DNA from: a bacterium | Lineage (GTDB): Bacteria; Bdellovibrionota_C; UBA2361; RFPC01 | Assembly (NCBI GenBank): GCA_022763385.1 | Contig: JALEGQ010000164.1 | Coordinates: 1 to 44,437, forward strand | DNA: 44,437 bases | Direction of reading: 5' to 3' | In this document: piece by piece, positions 29,243 through 31,294 of the stretch | How the letters are laid out: the number at the start of each line of letters is the position of its first letter | How positions within the stretch are numbered: the stretch's first letter is position 1 | Notes under the pieces: generated by a model | The model's input: only the letters and a program-made list of their open reading frames with translations | Database searches by the model: none | What the model was told of the DNA's origin: nothing | Position numbers and translations under genes: made by a program

Positions 29243-31294
29243 ATGGGGCAACCAGTGGAAGAAAAGGGAGAGATTCGACAAGAATTGACATCGCTTCCCC
29301 CCTCGGTAGCCTCGACCTGGTTAATCGCCATTCGCACTGCCATGGTGTCGGTGGGATTGCTCTCTTCAACGATTCATACCTTCTTTTTTAAGGGTGGAGA
29401 ATCATGGGTGTTCCAGGGCTTTGCCTTCCTCTTTCTCGTGAATGCCGTCCTTGCGATCTGGTCGAAGGTCAAGCAGCCCGAGGAGCTTTTCATCGGTATG
29501 CAGTTGGTCTTCGACTGCGTGGTCGTCTCGTGTATCCTCTTTATTACTGGAGGACCTCACAGCCCATTCCTCTTTCTCTATCTGCCCTTTCAGTTGATCG
29601 GAACGACCTTCCTTCGAGCTTCCTATTCCTTGGTCTTAGCGGGATTGATCAGCAGTCTCTATCTCTGTGTCTGTATAGTGCATGAGTCCCAACCCTCCCC
29701 GGAAGCCCTTGATGCGGTTACCAATGGAAGGCTCGTCATGCAGTGGGGAGCCGTTACCATCGCCCTTTTTCTGGTTCATATGGGAACCGCCCGAGTAAGA
29801 GTTTCGCTTCTTTCTGCCATGGATCGAGCACAGAGCTCTCTGCGCACGGCCCGCTCTCTGCAAGAGAATTTTGCGCAGTTGGCAGAAGGGATGGGAGAGG
29901 CGGTGCTCGTTGTTGATAGTTCGGGTTTTGTAACGTCAGCGAATAGAGCAGCGGAAGAGCTCTTTCGATTTGCCCGCTCCGAGGTTATTGGAGATTCTCT
30001 TCGTGATGTGAGTGTGCTGCTTGAAGAGCGATTCTCTCTTGAGAAGAAGCTCTCGGAGTATAAAACGTGGGACGAGTTTACCTTGTTGCCAGAAGGTGAT
30101 GATGGAGAAGAGCGACGGGTTGTTCTTCATCGGAACGAGCGAAGAACTGGAGATGGTAGCGGATACGTCACTTTCTATCTTTTCCAAGATGTTACCCAGC
30201 TTCGGACCGTTGAGGAGCAGTTGGCACTGCAGGAACGGATGGCAAGGTCACTGTCTGAAGACGAGCGAGGAGAAGGAGATCTCTCTGCCGTTAAGATCGC
30301 GGGTTTTGTCGGTGAAAGCCCGGTAATGAAGAAGCTTTTTCGGCTGATTGAGCGGGTTTCCACCTCAGATGCCACGGTTCTGGTGGCTGGAGAATCTGGA
30401 ACGGGAAAAGAGCTCGTCGCCAAGGCGATTCACCTTCAGAGCGCCCGTTCACGAGGTCCATTTATCGCCGTGAACTGCGGAGCAATTCCAGAGCAACTCT
30501 TGGAGAGTGAGCTTTTCGGGCATAAAAAGGGCTCATTCACCGGAGCGATCTCAGATCATCCCGGAATGTTTTCACAGGCAATTGGCGGAACGCTCTTCCT
30601 TGATGAGATCGGAGAGATGCCACTCCCGATGCAGGCGAAGCTCTTACGGGCGATTCAGGAGAAGGTTATTCGTCCCGTTGGGGCAAAGGATGTAGAGGAG
30701 ATCGATGTACGTATTATTGCGGCCACCAATCGAGAACTCCGAGAAGAGGTTGCGGAAGGGCGGTTTCGAGAGGATCTCTACTATCGGTTGAATGTCATCC
30801 AGATGAAGCTTCCTCCCCTGCGGGAGAGGCGAGAAGATGTCCCGGTGCTGATCCAATCCATTCTCAAGAGGCTGTCTCACGGCTCAGCAATTCCGTTGGT
30901 TCCTCCTCAGACGCTCCAGCTTTTAATGGATTATCGATATCCTGGAAATGTCCGCGAGCTCGAGAACGTTCTGGAACGTGCGCTTGTGCTGGGTGGTGAA
31001 GCGATTCTTCCGGAGCACCTTCCGGAGAATATCAGAGAGCCGGAAGTGGAGAAGAAGCCACCAACAGAGATTATTGTTCGAGAAGATGTTCTACTCCCGA
31101 TTGAGCTTGACTCCGTCTTGGCAGATATCGAGCAGCACTACCTTCGTACCGCGCTACAGCAGAGTGACGGGGTGAAGAAAAATGCTGCAAAGCTCCTCGG
31201 GATGAATTTTCGCTCCTTTCGCTACCGACTCCAAAAGTTCGGACTCAATGAGAATGAGTCGGAGGCTTCAGAAAAGCGAAACGCTTACGATTAA
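29243..31294 (+). CDS. membrane-bound sigma-54 activator, PilS-like sensor joined to a PilR-like AAA+ domain
   Basis: A 683-residue protein. Six N-terminal spans (about 24-190), including an FITGGPHSPFLFLYL loop, resemble the PilS sensor. A PAS domain (about 210-320) follows. A linker of about 40 residues then leads straight to the sigma-54 AAA+ domain, with Walker A GESGTGKE at 383-390 and the sigma-54 loop as GSFTGA at 430-435. A Fis-type HTH (KKNAAKLLGMNFRSFRYRLQ) ends the protein. Histidine kinase and receiver domains are absent, so it appears to sense and activate in one chain. pilA and a sigma-54 promoter lie nearby, making pilA the likely target. Confidence 0.92.
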   Translation: MGQPVEEKGEIRQELTSLPPSVASTWLIAIRTAMVSVGLLSSTIHTFFFKGGESWVFQGFAFLFLVNAVLAIWSKVKQPEELFIGMQLVFDCVVVSCILFITGGPHSPFLFLYLPFQLIGTTFLRASYSLVLAGLISSLYLCVCIVHESQPSPEALDAVTNGRLVMQWGAVTIALFLVHMGTARVRVSLLSAMDRAQSSLRTARSLQENFAQLAEGMGEAVLVVDSSGFVTSANRAAEELFRFARSEVIGDSLRDVSVLLEERFSLEKKLSEYKTWDEFTLLPEGDDGEERRVVLHRNERRTGDGSGYVTFYLFQDVTQLRTVEEQLALQERMARSLSEDERGEGDLSAVKIAGFVGESPVMKKLFRLIERVSTSDATVLVAGESGTGKELVAKAIHLQSARSRGPFIAVNCGAIPEQLLESELFGHKKGSFTGAISDHPGMFSQAIGGTLFLDEIGEMPLPMQAKLLRAIQEKVIRPVGAKDVEEIDVRIIAATNRELREEVAEGRFREDLYYRLNVIQMKLPPLRERREDVPVLIQSILKRLSHGSAIPLVPPQTLQLLMDYRYPGNVRELENVLERALVLGGEAILPEHLPENIREPEVEKKPPTEIIVREDVLLPIELDSVLADIEQHYLRTALQQSDGVKKNAAKLLGMNFRSFRYRLQKFGLNENESEASEKRNAYD

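Follow-up and report, generated by a model that had tools for sequence, protein, structure and literature searches.

A PilS-PilR fusion protein in the pil locus of Bdellovibrionota_C, a candidate one-component sigma-54 activator of pilA

Results

In this study, we describe a gene of a Bdellovibrionota_C bacterium (UBA2361; RFPC01) which joins the membrane and PAS half of the kinase PilS to the AAA+ and helix-turn-helix (HTH) half of the regulator PilR in a single polypeptide. The gene lies directly downstream of pilC on contig JALEGQ010000164.1 of assembly GCA_022763385.1, and the whole stretch analysed, 44,437 nucleotides long, is referred to as the window. The parts of the gene are as follows, with the basis of each assignment in brackets.

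29243..31294, + strand: fusion gene, PilS membrane-PAS half and PilR AAA+-HTH half, 683 amino acids from an ATG start (open reading frame (ORF), Pfam, trees)
29300..29788, + strand, residues 20-182: six predicted membrane helices, PF25323 6TM_PilS (Pfam, AlphaFold2)
29867..30190, + strand, residues about 209-316: PAS domain (PF00989, E-value (E) 3.6e-11; AlphaFold2)
30191..30256, + strand, residues about 317-338: helix retained from PilS, DVTQLR..EEQLALQERMA (alignments, hydropathy, model)
30257..30304, + strand, residues 339-354: junction, low-confidence linker (model)
30308..31036, + strand, residues 356-598: AAA+ sigma-54 interaction domain and lid (Pfam)
30530..30547, + strand, residues 430-435: GSFTGA sigma-54 contact loop (sequence, alignment)
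31106..31240, + strand, residues 622-666: Fis-type HTH with PilR-type FRSFRYR helix (Pfam, model)

Domain content of the fusion protein

The Pfam match to 6TM_PilS covers residues 55-184 (score 28.7 bits; cut-off, 27) and is followed by matches to PAS (209-309), Sigma54_activat (356-521, E 3e-72), the AAA+ lid (527-607) and HTH_8 (626-666). Signature motifs of a sigma-54 activator are present, namely Walker A GESGTGKE, Walker B FLDEIGE, the GSFTGA loop and HTH_8, and by Pfam, hydropathy and AlphaFold2 the predicted membrane region shares one polypeptide with the DNA-binding domain. HisKA, HATPase_c and Response_reg gave zero Pfam matches in the full protein, even at E ≤ 1. An earlier note on this DNA had read the protein as six PilS-like spans and a PAS domain leading into a GSFTGA AAA+ domain and a Fis-type HTH, with kinase and receiver missing, and the profile matches agree with it in both respects. 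Among NCBIfam models the top matches were PrdR, NifA and NtrC, all far under cut-off.

A search with residues 1-345, in which 7998 candidates were scored, retrieved the query and 18 other proteins, of which 14, with lengths of 629-686 amino acids, have AAA+ and HTH and four are kinases. Three homologues carry the NCBI label 'Bdellovibrionales bacterium'. In an alignment of 15 proteins, the query and 14 homologues (A1), PAS, Sigma54_activat and HTH_8 each match 15 of 15 rows and 6TM_PilS 12 of 15, and no row matches HisKA, HATPase_c or Response_reg (all at E ≤ 1e-3). Every row has an intact Walker A, and 13 have an intact sigma-54 loop, the remaining two (P0002 and P0008) reading GAFTDA.

A Kyte-Doolittle scan detected five of the six membrane segments in the fusion of the window and all six in several homologues. 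The AlphaFold2 model (mean predicted local distance difference test score 74.9, predicted template modelling score 0.39; input alignment, the 15 sequences of A1) has six main N-terminal helices, the sixth extending 56 residues into the PAS domain, to residue 216, and then a PAS fold, the AAA+ domain and the HTH. As for the PAS-AAA+ linker, whose structure prediction the earlier note had proposed, the outcome was divided: a helix was modelled at 323-338, and the stretch 320-354 as a whole came out at low confidence. Such a stretch could be accessible, and cleavage there, or an internal start, might free a soluble AAA+-HTH half resembling a truncated, receiver-free PilR. The helix preceding the junction is strongly conserved across the 15 rows, an argument against such release which we grade as weak, and on balance we regard release as quite unlikely compared with an intact, membrane-bound activator.

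Relationship to PilS and PilR

A myxobacterial contig (L017) carries, in order, pilB, a second PilB/PilT-family ATPase, pilC, PilS (610-residue frame) and PilR (489-residue frame; receiver-AAA+-HTH). Its PilS aligns to fusion residues 26-334 (E 9e-15), and its PilR to residues 317-674 with 50% identity (E 2e-105). The PilS helix FQDVTQLR..EEQLALQERMA is kept in the fusion, divergence setting in just ahead of the position of the kinase histidine (ERLAAVGEMAARMAHEIRNP in PilS), and the C termini are similar (GGVKKRAARLLGVSFRSFRYRVEKLG in PilR and DGVKKNAAKLLGMNFRSFRYRLQKFG in the fusion).

A quick tree was built from 122 AAA+-HTH sequences: 36 fusions, 80 sequences from reference loci and six of the genome of the window (the own genome). 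The reference loci came from a scan of contigs with A1 in which the patterns were drawn from the AAA+ core, and it returned mostly ordinary bacterial enhancer-binding proteins (bEBPs). All 36 fusions fell in a 60-row clade (Shimodaira-Hasegawa-like approximate likelihood ratio support 97) together with all six references from pil loci and none of the six other bEBPs of the own genome. In a careful tree of 72 rows, 40 of 42 fusions formed one clade (support 100/100) within a 63-row PilR clade (97/86). The exceptions are the f14 proteins of G028 (L174) and G030 (L173), which sit on a long branch at another place within the PilR clade and stand apart from the other fusions in both trees; a single clade of all 42 fusions was not rejected (approximately unbiased test, p = 0.231). 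The membrane-PAS part of the f14 proteins is short and divergent, and they may represent a second, independent fusion.

As judged from both trees, the AAA+-HTH half of the fusion descends within PilR. An ancestral pilS-pilR pair would have lost the stretch from the PilS histidine through the end of the PilR receiver, and the PilS helix which formerly fed the kinase would now feed the AAA+ domain; a single loss, running from the PilS histidine to the AAA+ domain of PilR, would be enough to yield the fusion.

Occurrence in the phylum and beyond

Upstream of the fusion gene lie pilB and pilC:

26253..27953, + strand: pilB (TIGR02538, 793.9 bits against a cut-off of 675.65)
27989..29209, + strand: pilC (T2SSF; the top NCBIfam model is a PilC model, under its cut-off)

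The fusion starts 33 bases downstream of pilC and thus occupies the slot held by pilS-pilR in Bdellovibrio and myxobacteria. Between pilB and pilC (27953-27989) there is no pilT-like gene, unlike in Bdellovibrio and L017, no pilT search having been made elsewhere.

For our survey of the phylum we searched 45 genomes, which all belong to one class. The fusion is present in 29, being whole in one frame in 24 and cut by a contig end in five (G009, G032, G038, G039, G044); G033, with the membrane part alone at a contig end, was left out of this count, and in 15 further genomes (twelve of one genus, f11/g14, together with G012, G015 and G040) no fusion was counted. In 28 genomes one contig holds both pilC and all or part of the fusion, and in every one of them the fusion lies directly downstream of pilC on the same strand. 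An orthologous pilC (at least 52% identity) occurs in 25 of a set of 37 genomes. Of these 25, 22 carry the fusion, G033 is cut, and in G012 and G015 no fusion follows pilC. The f11/g14 genomes, in which the fusion is absent, have a distant pilC relative alone (35-39% identity), probably GspF, or none. Searching with the membrane-PAS part of the window's protein (phmmer) gave no match in L166, L170, L171, L173, L174, L224 and L231; hydrophobic segments number two in L166, which is cut at its start, and four to five in L170, L171, L173 and L174, and L224 and L231 were counted as fusions by frame and coverage. In the fusion of G007 (L167 8797-10653, a 619-residue frame) the last membrane helix runs directly into the PilS-derived helix and the PAS domain is missing from the alignment; in this one genome the loss may be an assembly deletion. 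It is clear from the survey that the fusion is a lineage trait and not a single oddity.

In the phylum of a Bdellovibrio genome, where at most four candidates per genome were scored, 221 of 290 genomes match A1 at E ≤ 1e-120. The matches listed start at model position 325 or later, that is, in the AAA+-HTH half, and in all 12 loci read a PilS-like kinase ORF directly precedes a receiver-AAA+-HTH protein; the gene order in Bdellovibrio bacteriovorus is given as pilB-pilT1-pilC-pilS-pilR (PMC4237445, in excerpt). In the myxobacterial phylum 164 of 195 genomes match A1 (six candidates scored per genome), and the receiver precedes the AAA+ domain in 25 of 25 loci read (six returned and 19 others among the matches listed, picked mostly for long frames), the upstream gene being a PilS-like kinase in the four cases where it was read. 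The fusion was thus not seen in the 290 and 195 genomes searched in these two phyla, and the receiver is kept in all 37 interpretable loci read among the matches listed. Some myxobacterial long frames were considered as fusions and rejected, as they look like out-of-frame N-terminal extensions. A 750-residue PilC-PilR fusion in G247 of the Bdellovibrio phylum (L277 1200-3449) has an NN assembly gap at the joint and was dismissed as an artefact.

Separate PilS, PilR and RpoN

In the own-genome assembly, which is 86.5% complete, neither a separate pilR nor a recognisable separate pilS was found. Among its bEBP genes the FRSxRYR helix occurs in the fusion only. By eye, five of the other bEBP matches start with a receiver, L007 and L011 show none, and two pieces look like parts of one gene; the remaining weak matches are Clp- and Mg-chelatase-like. 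A PilR hidden at contig ends was also considered: the two pieces, C24 and C178, end at contig ends and share the same stretch, as would the halves of one receiver gene interrupted by an assembly gap, and the HTH is not of the PilR type. The other 6TM_PilS protein of this genome is a 466-residue RegB-like kinase beside a short RegA-like receiver-HTH regulator. Likewise, of the 13 non-fusion 6TM_PilS matches in the 37 genomes, 12 are RegB-like kinases with a RegA-like neighbour, and the other, in G032:C44, is weakly matched; these matches were rejected as PilS. The names RegB and RegA are those that we presume for this kinase/regulator pair. The 6TM_PilS search is insensitive, recovering 13 of the 22 fusions in the 37 genomes and nothing in the Bdellovibrio genome G050, and a divergent PilS could therefore be missed. 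The absence of PilR rests on better evidence than the absence of PilS.

The gene for sigma-54, rpoN, was found in 33 of the 37 genomes (not in G000, G012, G027 and G028) and not in the own-genome assembly. We rejected a lineage without sigma-54 as less likely than an assembly gap, since rpoN is present in those 33 genomes.

With regard to the remaining claims of the earlier note, the position after pilC, where pilS-pilR normally sit, holds in each of the 28 genomes with both genes on one contig, and in the window pilA is also near. Its view of the protein as a merger of PilS and PilR is upheld by a C-terminal half inside PilR in two trees and an N-terminal half that aligns to PilS, and the survey of pil loci that it had called for yielded the same fusion in other genomes. 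Its expectation that separate pilS and pilR genes are lacking agrees with the search for PilR, and as to PilS the sole other 6TM_PilS protein is RegB-like; the incomplete assembly and the insensitive 6TM_PilS search qualify that part.

The pilA promoter

Downstream of the fusion gene are a pilin gene and the predicted sites upstream of it:

32870..32882, + strand: upstream dyad GACAAAAATTGTC, candidate binding site of the fusion (motif enrichment, genome scan)
32897-32900 and 32934-32937, + strand: two further TGTC half-sites (motif scan)
32978..32993, + strand: predicted sigma-54 promoter TGGCACCAGAGTTGCT, upstream of pilA
33175..33555, + strand: pilA-like pilin with E5 and P22 of the mature protein present (Pfam, NCBIfam, sequence)

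The pilA start is about 1.9 kb past the fusion stop. The sequence TGGCACCAGAGTTGC at 32978-32992, 197 bases upstream of the pilA start, is the sole exact match to TGGCAC-N5-TTGC in the window, where matches with at most two mismatches number 31 against 26 expected. Ahead of the first pilA, a sigma-54 site with at most one mismatch is present in 13 of 13 fusion loci and in the four later loci, 17 of 17 in all (mismatch-free in four), against a background of 16 in 916 windows of 500 bases from the same loci, the pilA windows and G012 included. The second pilins of L164 and L227 have no such site (four mismatches).

These sites bear on whether the fusion is a functionless remnant, like gonococcal Rsp, left after loss of sigma-54 control and uninvolved in the transcription of pilin. 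In Neisseria gonorrhoeae, Rsp is a PilS/PilR chimera which is described as repressing pilA (PMC10269533, in excerpt); a second paper states that it appears to have no part in pilE transcription (PMC6528607, in excerpt). The retention of the fusion across the phylum, the intact Walker A and mostly intact sigma-54 loop in A1, the frequency of rpoN and the sigma-54 sites at pilA in 17 of 17 loci all speak against a remnant, which we consider very improbable beside a working activator.

In the 200 bases upstream of the sigma-54 site, TGTCA/TGACA occurs 30 times against 4.8 expected in the 13 loci from which the motif was derived (0 of 1000 shuffles); the four later loci, scored separately, have seven against 1.9 expected (1 of 1000 shuffles), one of them having none. 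Pairs of GACA and TGTC at spacings of 0-25 number 11, nine of which are at exactly 5 (GACA-N5-TGTC), in 8 of the 17 loci. A scan of the own genome gave three occurrences of the dyad GACAWWWWWTGTC (control 0), of which one lies upstream of pilA. The other two lack a good sigma-54 site (best two and three mismatches), and a regulon beyond pilA was rejected on this basis. A near-dyad, GACAAATTTTGAC, lies at 26053-26065, about 190 bases upstream of pilB, and the interval up to pilB holds no sigma-54 site with two or fewer mismatches. Through this near-dyad the pilB-pilC-fusion genes might regulate themselves. A (C/G)TGTC element is known for PilR. The hallmarks of Pseudomonas PilR sites, TGT-N11-AGA and GTCT elements (PMC6058289, in excerpt), differ from the GACA-N5-TGTC dyad found here. 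In G012 (L184; one genome, 70% complete) two pilins follow pilC without a fusion, a 2-mismatch sigma-54-like site precedes pilA, the dyads are missing as well, and zero and one half-sites precede the two pilins. From the predicted sites, pilA is the likely target of the fusion.

In the 17 loci pilA is at most 7.1 kb from the fusion gene, and in nine at most 1 kb, a sample biased by the short stretches read around the fusion. This closeness, and the G007 fusion without a PAS domain, would fit a membrane part that serves as an anchor or polar address, placing an always-on activator at the pilus machine or near its own gene without any sensing. For a mere anchor, however, the PAS domain, the PilS helix that follows it and arginine R31, with which the first membrane helix opens and which recurs in at least 90% of the 15 rows and also in PilS rows, would be needless, and all are kept in A1. 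We therefore hold a simple anchor to be rather unlikely, and prefer a membrane part that senses.

Other genes of the window

Two long ORFs downstream of pilA, 33639-35456 (- strand) and 35132-37222 (+ strand; with a relative in L159), overlap by 325 bases at their starts, and one start codon is probably mis-set. At 37282-39894 a TPR-like (tetratricopeptide repeat) protein, an ATP-binding cassette (ABC) ATPase and an ABC permease follow pilA in the same order as in Pyxidicoccus (L058) and several relatives. By position this trio presumably corresponds to PilG, PilH and PilI of the myxobacterial pil cluster. At 15915-17680 (- strand) a chemoreceptor-like protein with no obvious membrane segments adjoins a small PAS protein, resembling by eye a split energy-taxis receptor.

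Discussion

We propose that the fusion combines the sensor half of PilS with the AAA+ and DNA-binding half of PilR, has no recognisable kinase or receiver, and likely activates pilA from a sigma-54 promoter without phosphate transfer, a reading to which we give a probability of roughly 0.7. In this mechanism the dyads upstream of pilA would serve as binding sites for the HTH, and the six membrane helices would sense how much pilin the inner membrane contains, which is also what PilS of Pseudomonas senses. The pilin signal would change the dimer formed by the PAS domain and the coiled coil, and assembly of the AAA+ ring would be blocked or freed; the PAS domain would usually, not always, be on the path that runs from the membrane helices through the PilS helix to the AAA+ domain. 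The assembled ring would then remodel the sigma-54 polymerase at pilA.

Pseudomonas PilS contacts pilin directly through its membrane segments for autoregulation (PMC6058289), and its R24, with E5 and P22 of the pilin, is said to matter (PMC6528607). In Pseudomonas gingeri the PilS arginine is residue 24 if the start is GTG. As E5 and P22 are common in type IV pilins, their presence in the pilin of the window is weak evidence. Tentatively, and with the odds in our view against it, a phylum-level lineage may have exchanged phosphotransfer for a mechanical link, in which the PilS domain reads membrane pilin and drives assembly of its own AAA+ ring, and insertion of the activator, often encoded near pilA, pulls the pilA enhancer to the membrane as a membrane-tethered enhancer.

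Several points weigh against the proposal of a phosphorylation-free activator of pilA. The nature of the signal, its path to the AAA+ domain, the binding to pilA, the looping of DNA from a membrane tether and the steps from sensing to ring are what we infer. The linker that would couple the two halves is of low confidence in the model, 6TM_PilS is unmatched in three of the 15 rows of A1, and the fusion of G007 suggests that the PAS domain may not be essential everywhere. MAFFT puts the Pseudomonas gingeri arginine two columns off R31, and we equated the two by a gapless hand alignment. The f14 proteins branch apart from the others, and the fusions may have more than one origin; G012 and G015 carry pilC with no fusion after it. 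The case against a separate PilS is not a strong one, and rpoN is missing from the own-genome assembly. At the promoter, the exact dyad is absent in nine of the 17 loci, with one half-site in L162, and the sigma-54-like site that persists in G012 without the fusion may point to another activator there.

Like the PilS-PilR pairs of Pseudomonas, Myxococcus and Bdellovibrio, the fusion has six membrane helices, a PAS domain, which the aligned PilS rows share, and the AAA+ and HTH domains of PilR, and its locus resembles theirs in the position after pilC and in a sigma-54 promoter at pilA. It differs from them in being one protein instead of two, with no kinase, no receiver and hence no phosphotransfer. 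Rsp, which we compare by description only, likewise joins a PilS N terminus to a PilR C terminus; it is gonococcal, whereas the fusion is phylum-wide, with AAA+ motifs and sigma-54 sites at pilA. Membrane-bound transcription regulators are widespread, with 50,302 mined from 11,337 species, and sigma-54 members may be among them; ToxR, CadC, TcpP and others likewise carry a membrane part and a DNA-binding domain in one polypeptide (PMC10269533). In contrast to ToxR, CadC and TcpP, none of which is known to be an AAA+ activator of sigma-54, the fusion would need to assemble into an ATPase ring and, from the membrane, make contact with the sigma-54 polymerase. One-component bEBPs whose sensors are PAS or GAF domains, such as NifA, TyrR and PrdR, resemble the fusion in having the sensor before the AAA+ and HTH domains. 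Their sensors are soluble and not PilS membrane domains, and the trees place the AAA+ part of the fusion with PilR instead. The GSFTGA form of the loop is also listed, in the excerpt at hand, for DVU3220 of Desulfovibrio.

In the titles and abstract openings of the literature searched, from which subscription papers were mostly outside, no conserved PilS-PilR fusion activator was found. What was already known is the Rsp chimera and membrane-bound one-component regulators; what is new is a conserved and apparently functional PilS-PilR switch that is free of phosphorylation. It seems that the phylum offers a natural experiment on the purpose of a phosphorelay, in which sensor, activator and promoter are apparently kept and the kinase and receiver are removed. 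Two questions become testable: whether conformation alone, arising from a membrane signal, can control an AAA+ sigma-54 activator, and how an enhancer-binding protein can get to its promoter while it is held in the membrane. Moreover, the fusion suggests a one-step route from a two-component to a one-component system, through loss of one stretch between adjacent genes.
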